Of a DNA stretch of 64,000 bases, positions 16,251 through 42,194 are shown one piece after another. The stretch covers positions 62,001 to 126,000 of the forward strand of contig JAENZN010000004.1 of the NCBI GenBank assembly GCA_016841245.1. Direction: 5' to 3'. Within the stretch, counting starts at the first letter, position 1. Every line of letters starts with the position of its first letter. The translations under genes were made by a program, and so were the position numbers. A model generated the notes under the pieces. It saw only the letters and a list, made by a program, of their open reading frames with translations, ran no database searches and was not told the origin of the DNA. The stretch comes from Syntrophomonas sp. Lineage in GTDB: Bacteria > Bacillota > Syntrophomonadia > Syntrophomonadales > Syntrophomonadaceae.

Positions 16251-16697
16251 GTATGTTTGAATAGTTATGAAATTGCTGAAAAACATATCAACCGAGTGGT
16301 GTCTTTCTAAAAGAAAGGTTACGCCGTTTGACTGGGAATAATACATACTTGTACATAAAGAGACCGGGGGAAGAGTTTTATCATTAGCGAATCTGAGAAT
16401 ATCTGAAAACAATACATTTAATGCAAAAAACCTATAACCAAATAATTAAGTAATGTGAATAATGAAAAAATAGAAATATTTTATGTACGAAGCTAAATAA
16501 TGTGATAATATGGTAAAAATAGGTCGTAATAACTAAATAAATAATATTAGTAAGTATTAAGTACTAAAAATGAACGTCATAAGGCAAAGGGGGGATAAAA
16601 AGAAACTGCTTATTACTTCTATTAGATTGATATTTTTTTTTGTATTTATCGTAGGGAAATGTAAAGTACAATATGGGTAATGAAGGGGGAGACAGTG
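16251..16697. other. Long intergenic region upstream of the chemoreceptor gene
   Basis: AT-rich leader of about 450 bases. It contains a hairpin GGTGT-CTTTC/GAAAG-ACGCC (about 16297-16326) and a 36-codon ORF 16570-16680 coding a small hydrophobic peptide without a ribosome binding site. I compared it with the cyclic-di-GMP riboswitch consensus and saw no match. No gene is called. Confidence 0.4.
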
Positions 16698-17852
16698 GTG
16701 ATTTCTGCACAAGCTTTAGATTCCTGTAAAGTATTATCAGAATTAATGGTGAAGATGATCCCGGGTGGGGTTTTATTTGTAATTGTGGAAGGCAGCACAG
16801 TTGTCTGGATGAAACAATCGGATTCATTTACCATTGAATTATTTAAAGTGGGGCATAAATTAGATGCTACTACTACTACTATGAAGGCAATACATGAGAT
16901 AAAGGTACTGAATGAAAATGTTCCGCGTTCGGTATATGGGATGAGATTGGAAATCTCATCAATACCAGTCATCAATGATGATGGAGATGCGATAGGGGCA
17001 TTTTCGATAATAGTACCTAAATTGCATCCAGTTGCAGCTGCTTTCGGTGATTTTGCACCAATCTTGGCGGAGATGTTCCACGATGGATCTATTCTGTATA
17101 TGACCGATTTACAAAAAGTCAGCTATAGGCAGGAATCGAAAAATTGGAATATCAATATAGAGACTACTAATTTTGGTCATGAGTTAAAGCCGGAAGAAGT
17201 TGCTTATAAAGCCATAAAATCTCAACAGCCAACCACCGTAGAAATTGATGCTGCCAGATATGGTACTCCGGTTAATGTAGTAAGCTATCCACTTTTGGAT
17301 GACAATAAGGAAAATGTAGTCGCTACCCTGGGACTTATTACCCCAAAACAAACTGCGGTTACACTGCGTGGCATGTCCGGCAATCTTGGAGAAGGTCTGA
17401 GCAGTATTAGTGCTGCTATTCAGCAGTTAGCAGGATCTGCAACCGACATACATTCTAATGAACAGGCACTCAATGCCAGCATTAAAGAAATAATTGATTA
17501 TGCAGAACAAATTAATGAAGTATCAGTATTCATAAAAGAGATAGCCGAGGAAACTAAGATGTTGGGCCTTAATGCAGCTATAGAAGCAGCACGGGCAGGC
17601 GAAGCTGGCCGAGGCTTTGGCGTCGTTGCTGAAGAAATTAGACACCTTTCAGAACAATCTAAGGGCACCGTACCAAAGATAGCACAATTAACTAATACCA
17701 TAAAGGATATAACCCGGGAAGCTAATGAGAAAAGCAAACTTTCTCTATCGGCAGTACAGGAACAGGCAGCAGCTACGGAGGAAATCACGGCTAGTATTCA
17801 AGAAATAACCGCCATGTCAGATGAACTAAACAATATCTCCAAGAAATTGTAA
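16698..17852 (+). CDS. Soluble methyl-accepting chemotaxis protein with duplicated sensor domain
   Basis: About 385 aa and no membrane segment. The C-terminal signalling domain carries the conserved hairpin tip [33 protein letters not shown] (about 292-324), which contacts CheA and CheW. The N-terminal 225 residues look like two copies of one PAS-like module: [14 protein letters not shown]...[22 protein letters not shown] against [14 protein letters not shown]...[23 protein letters not shown]. The signalling part is short. Start GTG 16698 (or 16695) sits behind GGGGGAG; an ATG at 16680 would include that site. It probably senses a cytoplasmic or diffusible signal, ligand unknown. Confidence 0.85.
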
Positions 17853-34454: not shown

Positions 34455-37400
34455 ATGGATAAATTGCTGCACCTCGGTTTAGATGTTGGCTCAACAACTG
34501 TAAAGATAATAATTTTAGACCATTCTAATTCTATTGTATACAGCAAATATCAACGCCATTACTCAGATATAAAAGTTACTATATCTAAGATGATAGAGGA
34601 TGCTAATCTTGCATACCCGGGCATGAATGTAACTCTTATGGTAACGGGTTCTGGCGGCTTATCAGCCTCTAAGTTTTTACAGGCTGGTTTTATTCAGGAA
34701 GTTATAGCCTGTTCCCAGGCGGTGGAAAAATACATACCCCAAACTGATGTAGCTATTGAGCTGGGTGGAGAAGATGCCAAGATAACCTTCTATGAAATCG
34801 GTGGAAGTATTGATCAGCGGATGAATGGGACTTGCGCCGGTGGAACGGGAGCATTTATTGACCAGATGGCGGCTATGCTGAAGACAGACGCTGCCGGCTT
34901 AAATGAAATGGCCCGGAAGTATCATACTATATATCCTATCGCCGCAAGATGCGGTGTATTTGCTAAAACTGATATTCAGCCTCTATTAAACGAAGGGGCA
35001 TCTAGAGAGGATATAGCTGCTTCTATTTTTCAGTCAGTAGTTAACCAGACTATTGGCGGTCTGGCTTGCGGAAAATCTATTCGTGGTCATGTGACATTTC
35101 TGGGTGGACCATTATATTTTCTATCTGAACTTAGAAAGAGATTTATTGAAACTCTGAACCTGGACCAGGAGCATGCCATATTTCCTGATAATGCTCAATA
35201 TTATGTAGCCATTGGGGCAGCATTGGCATCCAGGTCTGAGGAGACGGTTAAGCTTAATACGCTTTTGGATAGACTGCATAACTCGAAGGGTATACAATCA
35301 GAAGATGTACGTCGTTTGGATGCTTTATTTACCAGTGAGGATGAGCTGAGTGAATTCAAAGCCAGACATCGGGCCCATAACCTGGAACGTAGCAAAATAA
35401 CGGAATTCCAGGGGGATTGTTTTCTGGGGATAGATGCCGGCTCAACTACTACCAAAGCGGCTTTAATAGATACTCATGGTAAGCTTTTATATTCATATTA
35501 TGCCAGTAATGAAGGCAGTCCATTGACCAGTACCTTGAATCTTCTGCGCGATCTATATGATAAATTACCTGAAGGAGCTGTCATTAGAAATTCGTCGGTA
35601 ACCGGTTATGGGGAAAGTTTAATTAAGTCAGCTTTTTCAGTTGATTTGGGTGAGGTAGAAACGATAGCTCATTATCGTGCTGCCCAGTATTTCCTGCCCG
35701 GGGTGGAGTTCATTCTTGATATCGGGGGGCAGGATATGAAATGTCTTAAAATTAAAAATGGAACTATAGACAGTATCATTTTGAACGAAGCTTGCTCTTC
35801 TGGATGCGGATCCTTTATTGAAACCTTTGCTCAATCCTTGAACATGAGTGTTCAGGAATTTGCTGAACATGCTCTTCTGGCAGAGCATCCCGTGGACCTT
35901 GGTACCAGGTGTACAGTTTTTATGAATTCTATGGTAAAACAAGCTCAAAAAGAGGGGGCCACCATAGGCGATATTTCAGCCGGTCTTTCCTATTCAGTAA
36001 TTAAAAACGCTTTGTTTAAGGTAATTAAACTAAGAAATACTGATCAGCTGGGAGATAAAATAGTTGTGCAAGGGGGAACTTTTCATAACGATGCAATCCT
36101 GAAAAGCTTTGAGAATATTGTAGGCCGAGAAGTGATACGACCGGATATAGCGGGGATAATGGGAGCCTTTGGAGCCGCCCTGATTGCTTCCGAAAAATAT
36201 CTCCCCGGTAAGGACAGCGATCTTATGGGAGGTACTGATCTGGAAGATTTCGGCTATAGTAGTTCTATGTCACGATGCGAAGGTTGTTTAAATAACTGTC
36301 TGCTTACCATAAATACCTTTAATGATGGCAGAGAATATATTTCCGGTAATCGCTGTGAAAAAGGGGCCGGTATGGAGAAGAAAGTCAGTAATCTGCCCGA
36401 CCTTTATGAATATAAGCTGCGGCGGCTGAGCAGATATGTTCCTCTAAAGAAAAAAGAAGCACAACGGGGAACCATAGGTATTCCCATGGTGCTTAATATG
36501 TATGAGAATTATCCATTCTGGTTTACTTTTTTCACCCGACTGGGATTCAGGGTGGAGAGGTCTCCGCGTTCATCCAAGACAATTTATGAACTGGGCTTGG
36601 AGACTATACCTTCGGAATCGGTTTGTTATCCGGGCAAAATGGTTCATGGTCATATAATGGCCCTGGTAAATAGTGGAGTAAAAACCATATTTCATCCGTG
36701 CATAACATATGAGAAAAAAGAAATTGAAGAAGCCTCAAATCATTTCAACTGTCCTATAGTAATTTCATATCCTGAAGTTATTAAGAATAATATGGACGTG
36801 TTAAGAGATAAGCACATTAAATTTATGAATCCTTTTCTTCCTTATGAAAACAAAAAACGTATGATACAGCGACTTTATGAAGAAATGGCAGATTATGGTA
36901 TAGGCAAAAAAGAAATTGCCGCGGCTGTTGAAGCAGCCTGGGAAGAGGAAGCAGAAGCCCGTCAAGACATACGCACAAAAGGGGAAGAAACCCTTAAATA
37001 TCTGGAAGAGACAAATCAGAAAGGAATCGTACTTGCCGGTCGGCCTTATCATATTGATCCCGAGATCAATCACGGTATTCCTGGATTAATCAACTCTATG
37101 GGTTTTGCCGTATTGACCGAAGACTCCGTTTCACATCTGGGCAAGGTTAATCGACCCATTCGAGTAGTGGATCAATGGATGTATCATTCCAGGCTCTATG
37201 CAGCTGCCAGTTATGTTTCGAATCGCAAAGATTTAGAATTAATACAGCTTAATTCCTTCGGCTGTGGTTTAGATGCGGTTACCACTGACCAGGTGGAAGA
37301 GATACTGGAATCATCGGGGAAAATATATACCTGCTTAAAAATTGATGAAGGAAGCAACCTGGGATCAGTGAAAATTAGAATTAGATCCCTGGTGGCGGCC

Positions 37401-38780
37401 ATGGAAGAGCGTTATAAATCTGGAAATAAACCGTCTATTCAGCCTGTAGTACAGAGCAGGCTGCCATTTACCGAAGAAATGCGCGATCGGCACACTATAA
37501 TATGTCCACAGTTGTCGCCTATACATTTCGAACTGGCACAGAATTTGTTTGCATCTGAGGGATATAATATCGTGGTCCTGCCCTCAGTGGACAAGAATGC
37601 GGTTGATGAGGGCCTTAAATATGTGAATAATGATGCTTGCTATCCATCGATACTAGTAGTTGGACAACTTATTGCGGCTTTAAAATCGGGTAAATATGAT
37701 TTAGAAAATACTTCGGTTATAATATCTCAGACTGGAGGGGGCTGCAGAGCAACCAATTATATTGCCTTCTTACGTAAAGCCATGAAGGATGCCGGCCTGG
37801 AAAATATACCGGTTATCTCAGCCAATATTACCGGTCTTGAGTCTAACCCCGGATTTAAAATAACCCCAGCTTTATTTAAAAAGGTAATCATGGGAATAAT
37901 CTACGGCGACCTGCTCATGAGAGTACTTTACCGGGTCAGGCCTTATGAGAAAATACCCGGTTCTGCTAATCTGCTTTTCGAAAAGTGGATAAACCTTTGT
38001 AAACAACAGTTGATGATTGGCGATATGTACAGTTTTCGCAAGTATGTTAAACAGATTGTAACGGAATTTGACCAGTTGGAGATCAGAGAGATCAGGAAAC
38101 CCCGGGTAGGAATTGTGGGTGAAATACTGGTAAAATATCACCCGACTGCCAATAATAACGTAATTAACATTATTGAAAATGAAGGTGCAGAAGCTGTAGT
38201 GCCTGATTTACTTGATTTCTTTACCTACTGTGCTTATGACCTCATATATCGCCACCGTTATCTATCTGGCACATTAAAAAGTAAAGTACTGGGTATGTGG
38301 TTCATAAAATATTTTGATAATTGCCGTCGTGATATGATAAAAGCATTAAAGCGGAGTAAGAGGTTCGATGCCCCCTGTTCAATTTATGACATGGCTAAAA
38401 ACGCTGAAAAGGTGGTTTCGCTGGGAAACCATACTGGCGAAGGCTGGTTGTTAACAGCGGAAATGATAGAGCTGATAGAAATGGGAGCACCCAATATTAT
38501 TTGCATGCAGCCTTTCGCATGTCTTCCTAACCATGTTACCGGCAAAGGTATGATTAAGGAACTGAAACGGCAGTATCCCGAAGCAAATATTGCCGCCATA
38601 GACTATGACCCAGGTGCCAGTGAGGTAAATCAATTGAATAGAATCAAACTCATGCTGTCAGTGGCTTTTAAAAACCTGAAAACAAATTGTGATTTGGCAG
38701 ATGTGGACGGTACTTCATTGGAAAATAAGAGTTCCTCTATTCAGGAGGGTGATAATATTATAAAGCAGAAGACGAGTTGA
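34455..38780 (+). CDS. Acyl-CoA dehydratase activase / 2-hydroxyacyl-CoA dehydratase fusion (BadF/BadG and DUF2229 type)
   Basis: 1441 aa. Two HgdC-type ATPase modules lie in tandem (DVGSTTVK near residue 10 and DAGSTTTK near residue 326). Each keeps its cluster-binding cysteines: CAGGTG and RCGVF in the first, ACSSGCGSF and RCTVF in the second. A DUF2229 region (about 660-880) and HgdB/HgdA-like sequence (about 880-1380) follow. Members of this family hydrolyse ATP to drive low-potential electrons to the [4Fe-4S] of 2-hydroxyacyl-CoA dehydratases or benzoyl-CoA reductases. The long fused form is common in syntrophic Firmicutes, and its substrate is not settled. A divergent tetR and palindromes suggest regulation by an acyl-CoA-type signal. 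AAGGAGGG lies about 20 bases before ATG 34455. Confidence 0.87.
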
Positions 38781-38929: not shown

Positions 38930-39787
38930 TCAGGCAATATCTGCCAGACTATGAGCCAGAGCCGTTAACTCCTGGGCCATGGCTTCAACCTGTTGTATGC
39001 TGGAGGAAACCGCCTGAGTTTGCTCCGCTTGTTTTCTTATGGTGGTGCCTGCATCATTTGCTCCACCAGCTATGGTCTTCACAGAATCTTCAATGTTTTT
39101 TAATATATCTGATATTTTCCCAACTGATACTGTGCTCTCTACGGCTAGTTTTCGTACCTCATCAGCCACCACCGCAAAACCTTTGCCATGTTCACCACTG
39201 CGAGCGGCCTCAATAGCAGCGTTAAAGCCCAGCAGTTTAGTTTGGGTAGCCGTAAAATTAATGATATTTAATACTTCTCCGGTTTCATTTAAACGTTCTA
39301 CAGCTTGGTTAGCGGAATCGACCAGGTCTTCACCTTTCTTGGACACTTCATTAGCATAAGCAGCAACGTCCTCCATCGCACGGGTAACCGTCTGCATGGT
39401 TGCAGAAAGATCGTTGGACATATCAGACAACTTTACCGCTTCGTTGTGCAGCTTTACCATCATCGTTTCCCGGCTTTCTAATAATGTCATCATCAAATTA
39501 GCGCCATGAGAGTCTACCACCGACGTATGCTCATTCTTGCCGCCGGTAATAATTTCCTGGACTTTTTCGCTTCCGGTTGCTTCAATGATTAAATCACAAT
39601 TACTCAGGGAAAATACATTATCCAGGTCGGTAAAAGTTTTTACTCCGATTTCCTTTGCCAGAACCATACCTGGAGCTGATGGATTGGCATCGCAAATTCC
39701 TATTACCTTGATACCTTCAATTCCCTGCAGCGCTTTCATAATAGAGCTGCCACCTTGTCCAGCACCAACAATAACAATGTTAGTCAT
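38930..39787 (-). CDS. Rossmann NAD-binding domain fused to a methyl-accepting chemotaxis signalling domain
   Basis: 285 aa, soluble. Residues 1-110 form a Rossmann fold with the dinucleotide motif G8-A-G10-Q-G-G13, an acidic residue at the end of the second strand (CDANP, D33) and IIEATGSEKVQEII, as in homoserine/aspartate dehydrogenase-type NAD domains. Residues about 110-285 are a chemoreceptor signalling helix bundle with the tip [31 protein letters not shown] (about 185-215). The acidic residue favours NAD(H). No catalytic domain follows, so the module probably acts as a cytoplasmic redox or metabolite sensor that feeds CheA. ATG 39787 follows GGGAGGGG. Confidence 0.85.
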   Translation of the reverse strand: MTNIVIVGAGQGGSSIMKALQGIEGIKVIGICDANPSAPGMVLAKEIGVKTFTDLDNVFSLSNCDLIIEATGSEKVQEIITGGKNEHTSVVDSHGANLMMTLLESRETMMVKLHNEAVKLSDMSNDLSATMQTVTRAMEDVAAYANEVSKKGEDLVDSANQAVERLNETGEVLNIINFTATQTKLLGFNAAIEAARSGEHGKGFAVVADEVRKLAVESTVSVGKISDILKNIEDSVKTIAGGANDAGTTIRKQAEQTQAVSSSIQQVEAMAQELTALAHSLADIA

Positions 39788-39790
39788 CAC

Positions 39791-40331
39791 ATAACCCCTC
39801 CCGTTCCATCTTTGCTTATTTCTTCTACAAAAATTAGTAAATTCCTTCTAAAACATGATAATATTCCTATATTAATATTGAATAAGCAGATACAACTGCC
39901 TAAAACAGTAAATTGTCTTTTTGTATTAACAAAGCAAGGACGTACGACCTGATAATAATTAAATAAAATAGATATTGGTTTAGAAAAATATAAGTATAAA
40001 TGGTATTAATGTGCAAACAAAGGAGGTATACGTCGCCAGAATATTTCCCGGCTAATTTGATAAGCAATACCTTTTCCAGGGAAACCAAGATCATCTATGC
40101 AATTAATTAACATAGGCTGTATCTGTGATAAAATCGCATGGGTTATGTTACAATATTTTTTAGTAATACTGAAAGAACAAAAAAGAAGGAATAATTTCTC
40201 AGGAGATCGCTTAGGACAGCCCGCCGTTTATATCCAAGACAGTCAAAATGATGCAGTTAGGCTGTTTCCAGGATATATTTTGATATCAGGTGTATTATCT
40301 TGAAATATTCTGTAAACAGGAGGAAGAAAAG
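39791..40331. other. Long intergenic region before the GerMN lipoprotein gene
   Basis: About 540 bases. AAAGGAGGT at 40019-40027 is a strong ribosome-binding-like sequence with no start codon after it. A 68-codon ORF at 40097-40303 has neither a ribosome binding site nor family features. No gene is called. Confidence 0.35.
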
Positions 40332-41258
40332 TTGATAAATCGTTTGTTTAAAATACTGGTGATATTAATGTTAATGGGAATTATTACAGGGTGTACCAAT
40401 GATGCGAATCAACTTAGTACAACCCCACCTGATGAAATAGAAAAGGTAAAAGTTCAATTGTACTATTCTGATTTAGGCAATGAACAATTTGTAGAGGAAG
40501 AAAGAGAAATATTATTCCCCAAAGGCCAGGATAAATATAGCATTGTGCTGCAAGAATTAATTAAAGGTCCAGAAAACTCCGATTACAGAAGCAACATAGC
40601 TTCCAAAACTATAGTATATGGTACCATGAAGCAGGGCAATGACCTGATTGTCAATTTGAGTAAAGAGTTCTGCAGTATCGGAGGAAGCATTGCTGAAATC
40701 ATAGCGGTTGGCTCTGTAGTTAACACGCTAACCAGTTTTGATCGGGATATTAACCGGGTCAAGATACTGGTGGAGGGTGACGAACTTATTGGTCCCAGCG
40801 GCAATTCCCGTGGCTTCATGGAGCCTTTCGAAAACAACATAAGTCAACCTGAAGTCAGTAAGGAAATTGCACTGTATTTCTGCAATCAGGATGCAACAGC
40901 GCTAGCTCAGGAAAAGAGGATAATTGCGGTTGCTCCCGATATTACCATGAAAGATTTAATGCTAAGAACCCTGGAAGAACTTATAAAAGGACCAACTGAC
41001 AGTGACCTGCATAAAACCATTCCGGTTGAAGTCCAGGTCAATAGTGTGGAAATAGATGATAATATTGCCCTGGTAGATTTCTCTATTGAGATGCATAGCA
41101 AACACTGGGGCGGAACAACTGGGGAAGGTATGACCATAAATTCTATTGTATATACCCTGACTGAATTTCCCGGTATAGATAAAGTGAAAATGACCGTGGA
41201 AGGAGGACCTATTTCAATAGAACACGGTCCTATCGATGAGGCGGTAGGAAGGCATTAA
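40332..41258 (+). CDS. GerMN-domain lipoprotein
   Basis: About 308 aa. The lipoprotein signal peptide ends in the lipobox ITGC (about residue 21). Two GerMN domains follow, each with the consensus leucine-rich start and GP motif (VLQELIKGPENSDY and TLEELIKGPTDSDL). GerM is needed in B. subtilis spore germination and sporulation, and other GerMN lipoproteins occur in vegetative cells. The start is TTG 40332, six bases after AGGAGGA (40319-40325); an upstream in-frame start at 40290 would lose the signal peptide. A bidirectional terminator follows. Confidence 0.85.
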   Translation: MINRLFKILVILMLMGIITGCTNDANQLSTTPPDEIEKVKVQLYYSDLGNEQFVEEEREILFPKGQDKYSIVLQELIKGPENSDYRSNIASKTIVYGTMKQGNDLIVNLSKEFCSIGGSIAEIIAVGSVVNTLTSFDRDINRVKILVEGDELIGPSGNSRGFMEPFENNISQPEVSKEIALYFCNQDATALAQEKRIIAVAPDITMKDLMLRTLEELIKGPTDSDLHKTIPVEVQVNSVEIDDNIALVDFSIEMHSKHWGGTTGEGMTINSIVYTLTEFPGIDKVKMTVEGGPISIEHGPIDEAVGRH

Positions 41259-41360: not shown

Positions 41361-42194
41361 TTATCTGGATGTTTTATCCCTGCGGTAGGGAATAGGAATA
41401 TACTCAACAGATGGTACCTGTCGGTTTGGCTGGGGATACAGATTCATCAAAAGATAGATCTCTTCCGGAACATCACAATTAACATTCAATCCCATATTGG
41501 TAAGGGTAGAACATACCAGTGCAAAATCATGCGTCCAGCGTCCCTCGCTGAGCATTTGGGCCAGTTTCTTAGCCTGCTCGTGTTCCACCCGGGGAGAGAG
41601 GATATCAACTGCTGATTCATATACCTGATGGGTAGCCTTTTCAGCGATATCAGCTAAAATAATTGTTTCATCATCTATTCTGTTGATCGGTTTATCCCGA
41701 AGAACTCTGATTATGGAATTGGCCGGGTATTGGCCTATCTGAGGGTCTACCGGTCCTAGTACTGCATTTTCATCCAACATGATCTCGTCAGCTGCCAGGG
41801 CTATCAAAGTGCCCCCTGACATGGCATAATGAGGTACAATAGCCGTTACTTTGGCCGGATGTCTTTTTAGAGCTCGTGCTATTTGTTCTGCGGCTAAAAC
41901 CAGACCTCCCGGAGTATGCAGAATTATGTCTATAGGCATATCATCTGGAGTCAAACGGATGGCGCGCAGTACCCGTTCTGCATCCTCCATATCTATAAAA
42001 CGGCGAAATGGTATCCCCAGGAAACTCAGTGCTTCCTGTCTGTGCAGGAGAGTGATTACCCGGCTGTGTCTTTTCTCTTCAATTTTGCGTATGAGAGCCA
42101 GCCTTCCTGAGATAATACGTCTCTGATTTAACACCGGCAGAAAAGCAAATAAGAGGAATAAAAACCATATTATTGAACCCATATTAACTTCCAT
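41361..42194 (-). CDS. ClpP-class membrane serine protease (SDH/SppA-like)
   Basis: 277 aa. An N-terminal membrane helix (IIWFLFLLFAFLPVL) is followed by a ClpP-fold domain with GGLVLAAEQIARAL, the likely nucleophile in VPHYAMSGGTLIALAAD (about residue 128) and LGPVDPQIGQYP. This resembles the SDH/SppA group of periplasmic or cytosolic-facing proteases, with a Ser-Lys or Ser-His-Asp dyad not fully assignable from sequence. Start ATG 42194 lies six bases after GAGGTGA. It ends beside the terminator of the GerMN gene. Confidence 0.8.
   Translation of the reverse strand: MEVNMGSIIWFLFLLFAFLPVLNQRRIISGRLALIRKIEEKRHSRVITLLHRQEALSFLGIPFRRFIDMEDAERVLRAIRLTPDDMPIDIILHTPGGLVLAAEQIARALKRHPAKVTAIVPHYAMSGGTLIALAADEIMLDENAVLGPVDPQIGQYPANSIIRVLRDKPINRIDDETIILADIAEKATHQVYESAVDILSPRVEHEQAKKLAQMLSEGRWTHDFALVCSTLTNMGLNVNCDVPEEIYLLMNLYPQPNRQVPSVEYIPIPYRRDKTSR

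Follow-up and report, generated by a model that had tools for sequence, protein, structure and literature searches.

The gene at 38930-39787 of the window (the whole stretch of 64,000 nucleotides analyzed) encodes an NAD-type Rossmann domain fused to a chemotaxis signaling hairpin. By the features tested (the MCPsignal match, the hairpin tip, and CheA), and with methylation sites and heptad class set aside, the protein is a cytoplasmic chemoreceptor. It is also part of a larger set of Bacillota regulators with a common input. We propose that the Rossmann pocket most likely holds NAD(H) and that its binding or exchange alters CheA activity, so that the cell would steer by its energy or redox state; we put the chances of this reading at about even.

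Gene and domain organization

The assigned features are as follows.

38930..39787, minus strand: Rossmann-MCP fusion receptor gene, complete, 285 amino acids plus stop (ORF and translation, full-length homologues)
39787-39785 and 38932-38930, minus strand: ATG start and stop, respectively (ORF call)
39795..39802, minus strand: ribosome-binding sequence GGGAGGGG, just 5' of the ATG and judged good (sequence inspection)
39512..39787, minus strand: NAD-type Rossmann domain, residues 1-92, with the motifs GAGQGG 8-13, D33, A38-P39-G40, A44, and E69-A-T71-G72 (Pfam, AF2 model, PDB matches, motif conservation)
39371..39511, minus strand: helix joining the last Rossmann strand to the receptor bundle, residues 93-139 (secondary structure of the model)
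38951..39370, minus strand: MCP signaling domain, residues 140-279 (Pfam MCPsignal)
39143..39244, minus strand: hairpin tip, residues 182-215 (column identity in 69 homologues)

Pfam returned both domains above their cut-offs and in the order proposed by a sequence-only reading of this DNA: GFO_IDH_MocA (PF01408) over residues 3-79 (E=5.7e-7; score 30.7 bits, cut-off 24), followed by MCPsignal (PF00015) at residues 140-279 (E=3.2e-25, 89.4 bits against a curated cut-off of 34.6). The GAGQGG motif and acidic D33, on which that reading had based its NAD-type domain, were both as described, and D33 lies where strand 2 ends. No HAMP domain and no catalytic or substrate-binding domain was found between the two parts in Pfam or in the models, and Pfam found no HTH, the Rossmann domain beginning at residue 2-3. 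The earlier description of the receptor as soluble was likewise borne out: the mean hydropathy reached a maximum of 1.04 over any 19-residue segment of the protein, and as its longest hydrophobic stretch is too weak, the receptor was deduced to have no transmembrane segment.

AlphaFold models were made from an alignment of three sequences only. For residues 1-113 the mean pLDDT was 82, and the Rossmann order of five strands alternating with five helices was obtained. The full-length model was poor (pLDDT 55) and was used for helix order only; at this low confidence, one unbroken helix (93-197) leads from the Rossmann domain into the signaling hairpin, and a second spans 202-284. The models therefore predict a bare hairpin fused to the last Rossmann strand, which together with Pfam agrees with the earlier claim that a complete chemoreceptor tip directly follows the NAD domain. 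When the N-domain model was compared to the PDB using Foldseek and VIA-align 2, almost all of the matches listed were NAD(P)-type dehydrogenase folds, among them the Gfo/Idh/MocA dehydrogenases and the acylating acetaldehyde dehydrogenases (Z up to 12.6) as well as Rex (Z 9.9). The assignment of the N terminus as a nucleotide-binding fold thus held in the profile search, the model, and the PDB matches.

The tip of an MCP hairpin is the contact region for CheA/CheW and for trimer partners. In the 69 short homologues, the mean column identity of the tip was 85% versus 45% across the remaining bundle, and the trimer-contact residues N189 and E193 were found in 69/69 and R196 in 66/69; these we take to correspond to Tsr N381, E385, and R388. 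The C arm extends 88-90 residues past the tip arginine, or about 12.5 heptads by residue count; twelve per arm define the 24H class. The methylation-site consensus was present in 28 of the 69 homologues and none was seen by eye in the protein from the window, leaving adaptation uncertain.

The gene stands alone in the window. On its 3' side lies a convergent 2-hydroxyacyl-CoA dehydratase activator-type gene (34455-38780, plus strand), whose large product of 1441 amino acids contains two BadF/BcrA ATPase stretches and DUF2229. On its 5' side lies a divergent gene for a germination/sporulation-type lipoprotein (40290-41258, plus strand), and further along is a gene for a ClpP-like SDH-type serine protease with a hydrophobic stretch at its N terminus (41361-42194, minus strand). 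Gene neighbors were rejected as a clue to function, as the only recurrence was the housekeeping cluster of one lineage, and no conserved operon partner of the short receptors was found in the neighbor comparison.

Conservation of the fusion family

The fusion family is conserved across many Bacillota. Full-length homologues were obtained from 17 of 61 close relatives, counting the query's own genome, and the others were 53-94% identical. In the phylum search, 63 of 398 sampled genomes matched at E<=1e-28; with G038, G040, and G189 (matched via a longer receptor) and G192 (matched via the MCP tip alone) subtracted, about 59 carry the short type. The fusion, for which a search in other syntrophs had been proposed, is not confined to syntrophs. 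Across dozens of genomes, the full-length form recurs at 29-94% identity and so is not a product of chance. A search of genome contigs with the single protein gave only two Syntrophomonas MAGs and MCP-only matches.

Conserved residues of the Rossmann domain in the 69 short homologues included G10, G13, A44, T71, and G72 (each 69/69) and G8, D33, and V76 (each 68/69). Seven pocket positions were 96-100% conserved, versus a mean of about 50% at the other Rossmann positions. Since G10, G13, T71, and G72 never vary and column identity elsewhere in the domain is near 50%, the pocket is deduced to be under selection rather than decaying.

Several irregular copies were also observed. In genome G192, a Rossmann-MCP gene (L162:3175-3600, minus strand) is frameshifted within the coiled coil, and the tip resumes in another frame. 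One close relative has an extra N-domain copy that appears to be broken, the match falling in two overlapping frames (G003:C27:184256-184598). Shorter variants of about 220 amino acids, in which the hairpin after the Rossmann domain is shortened, occur at L160:2833-3498 and L161:3042-3692.

The sequence-only reading knew of no characterized protein with this layout. No paper on a Rossmann-MCP fusion was found in the literature search, though an earlier mention is possible, and within the papers searched a Rossmann domain serving as chemoreceptor input has apparently gone undescribed. The layout itself belongs to a family spread over the phylum, and its module is found in sigma-54 regulators as well.

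The Rossmann domain as a mobile input module

With a profile (A3) built from the N-terminal ~115 residues, 99 of the 348 genomes from the phylum gave matches. Outputs were assigned by translation and Pfam scans of representatives, the remaining members being read from sequence. The module of ~110 residues was found not only in short MCPs (220-320 amino acids) but also ahead of longer MCPs, sigma-54 EBPs, PAS-HTH proteins, and one HD-GYP protein. The long receptors (L060-L065 and L166; 490-520 amino acids) have two extra modules between the Rossmann domain and the tip. The EBPs (L150-L153, L155, L158, L164, L165, L167, and L169) are about 440-690 amino acids long and mostly contain one or two PAS domains. 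Neither Pfam nor NCBIfam was found to have a family dedicated to the module. The weakest A3 matches are not all family members, since one of them, L159, is a true oxidoreductase (DRL).

Three PAS-HTH proteins of about 300 amino acids, without AAA+ and with the Rossmann domain in front, resemble the sigma-54 EBPs (L156:2686-3585, L157:2849-3748, and L168:2785-3684). Two of these, L156 and L157, are upstream of fumarate hydratase in the same position as the complete EBP L150. The HD-GYP protein (L154:2731-4869) is a weaker match in which an N-domain of the same type precedes PAS-GAF-PAS-HD-GYP; from its domains it is a possible c-di-GMP phosphodiesterase. In the plasmid collection, one weak N-domain match was obtained, from Acetoanaerobium, and the HD-GYP variant was not found.

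A second soluble MCP of 390 amino acids is present in the window (16680-17852, plus strand), with two tandem modules belonging to no Pfam family before its tip. These middle modules are those of the long Rossmann receptors (35-39% identity over 337-374 residues), and the Rossmann domain is absent. This shows that a Rossmann domain can be gained or lost by an existing receptor. In a tree of the N-domain, in which few branches were firm, the output types clustered (8 changes versus 22 for shuffled labels). The tree was rejected as a basis for a firm count of fusion events because the columns were too few.

The genes beside the module-bearing EBPs are mostly of energy metabolism and include those for amino-acid-oxidizing enzymes. 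Phosphate butyryltransferase (ptb) directly adjoins L152, L153, and L155, succinate-CoA ligase (sucC) adjoins L151 and L165, fumarate hydratase adjoins L150, a leucine/tryptophan-type dehydrogenase adjoins L158, and sarcosine/glycine-type oxidases adjoin L167 and L169. In B. thuringiensis, BkdR was described as having two PAS/PAC domains and as the regulator of a ptb-led operon (PMC4428206). Given their ptb neighbors and two PAS domains, L152, L153, and L155 fit BkdR, an identity that is based on gene order and the two-PAS layout rather than on comparison with the B. subtilis protein.

As a tentative generalization, a Rossmann module that reads NAD(H) would be widespread in Bacillota as a common metabolic input, acting on swimming through MCPs, on transcription through sigma-54 EBPs (BkdR, for example), and on c-di-GMP turnover through HD-GYP; we hold this to be somewhat less than probable.

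Ligand and proposed mechanism

In the proposed mechanism, the receptor would be a dimer in which the N-terminal Rossmann domain of each subunit is joined via its last strand to the long helix of the MCP hairpin. A dinucleotide, most likely NAD(H), would occupy the conserved pocket formed by the G8-G10-G13 loop, D33, and T71-G72. We infer that its binding, or a swap of the oxidized and reduced forms, would alter the packing of the two Rossmann domains; this change would move the joined helices and thereby alter CheA activity at the hairpin tip, and the cell could in turn steer by its internal energy or redox state. The earlier proposal of an NAD(H) or metabolite signal to CheA is partly supported, being reasonable but unproven.

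Among the points in favor of NAD(H) is D33, whose counterpart in the alignment with B. subtilis inositol dehydrogenase is D35. The PDB entry 4l8v, listed in the structure comparison, is an A12K/D35S mutant with NADP, and since D35 is among its two substituted positions, the aspartate is taken to mark a preference for NAD. Counting against NAD(H), a GxGxxG Rossmann fold can hold other nucleotides.

The main rival, suggested by acylating acetaldehyde dehydrogenase similarity and by the genes beside the EBPs, is that the domain senses CoA or acyl-CoA instead and reports the state of fatty-acid or acid fermentation, a readout that would suit a butyrate-oxidizing Syntrophomonas. The closest structures by profile were the acylating acetaldehyde dehydrogenases (Z 12.6 by structure), which share the G-x-x-x-A+ helix motif past strand 2 and which handle CoA besides NAD, and EBPs with the same module adjoin phosphate butyryltransferase and succinate-CoA ligase. 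However, these enzymes, as aligned, have no aspartate at the column where the NAD-type acid D33 is found in 68/69 homologues, and other module EBPs adjoin non-CoA genes such as fumarate hydratase. We consider CoA sensing unlikely.

More doubtful is that the Rossmann domain serves as a docking platform, with the nucleotide constitutive or absent and the real signal being another protein, e.g., a dehydrogenase. Most positions outside the pocket are variable, and bacterial receptors that sense a protein's activity are in principle known (PMC6978683). Against this, the invariant positions are mainly those of the pocket, with no evident surface patch, and no partner gene is conserved alongside. Docking, and likewise an output other than motility, were deemed less likely than the NAD(H) and CoA readings.

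Link to chemotaxis

All 63 genomes from the phylum search contained CheA, compared to 329/398 overall (P=1.9e-6, uncorrected for relatedness). Among close relatives, CheA was found in 17/17 genomes with the fusion, and the fusion was absent from 9/9 genomes lacking CheA (P=0.04). Since CheA was present in every fusion genome checked, a link between metabolism and motility can fairly be drawn, and as the fusion design is conserved across many Bacillota, those that carry it may steer swimming by their own metabolic state. A perfect flagellar SigD-type promoter (TAAA-N15-GCCGATAA), for which shuffles expect no occurrence, was found just 5' of the gene at L097 and L103, which belong to two genomes of a single genus. 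As these were the only 2 of 75 loci, with the remainder at shuffle level, the promoter was rejected as a general mark of the family.

That promoter argues against the possibility that the tip feeds an alternative CheA pathway and that swimming is not controlled, which we regard as improbable. In its favor, cytoplasmic receptors can also act in non-flagellar pathways, there are 2-4 CheA genes in several relatives, and the Rossmann module serves gene regulation too. In the genome of the window, a single CheA was detected (PF02895 at G000:C37:332834-333007, E=8e-17), so no second pathway is evident there. Finally, an artefact, whether adjacent genes read as one or a chance resemblance to a Rossmann domain, is ruled out by the full-length homologues in dozens of genomes, nearly all free of internal stops, and by the confident fold model of the N-domain; the frameshifted L162 indicates that such genes can break.

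Comparison with known systems

Like the cytoplasmic MCPs (the PAS-type AerC and Aer2, and TlpD), the fusion receptor has an MCP hairpin without a transmembrane segment, internal sensing, and output to CheA. Their input is a PAS or CZB domain, whereas here an NAD-type Rossmann domain sits directly on the helix without HAMP. In the known receptors for energy taxis, Aer being one, redox is sensed by way of FAD in a PAS domain; an NAD pocket of the dehydrogenase type, fused directly to a chemotaxis hairpin, would, if true, link the NAD pool to movement more directly.

The Gfo/Idh/MocA enzymes, represented by B. subtilis inositol 2-dehydrogenase (3nto), share the glycine motif and the NAD-selective aspartate in an N-terminal Rossmann domain. 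They differ in having a C-terminal substrate domain and the catalytic EKP. The fusion receptor lacks that domain, and DSHGA replaces EKP, from which the absence of the catalytic lysine was deduced. The acylating acetaldehyde dehydrogenases of the DmpF/HsaG type (1nvm and 4lrs), closest to the N-domain by profile and among the top matches by structure, have a C-terminal catalytic domain with an acylated cysteine that Pfam did not find in the fusion receptor, and their residue aligned to D33 differs from that of the fusion family. Rex, which the profile search matched weakly (5zz5, E=0.0045), uses its Rossmann domain as a sensor and not as an enzyme, as proposed for the receptor, but its output is DNA binding by an N-terminal winged helix, which the fusion receptor lacks.

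The BkdR-type EBPs (L152, L153, and L155) have the same N-terminal Rossmann module as the fusion receptor, followed by PAS, AAA+, and HTH domains in place of the MCP tip. A survey of 490 Clostridiales EBPs described many N-terminal domains, with Rossmann not among them (PMC6615313), nor is it among the domains given in an analysis of the B. thuringiensis EBPs (PMC4428206). A Rossmann domain in BkdR-type proteins, which have been studied genetically, is reported in neither paper, so surveys based on domain names can miss this module. With the same pocket placed ahead of sigma-54 activators, BkdR-like and others, about whose internal signals little is known, the identity of its ligand would bear on many regulators of anaerobic metabolism.
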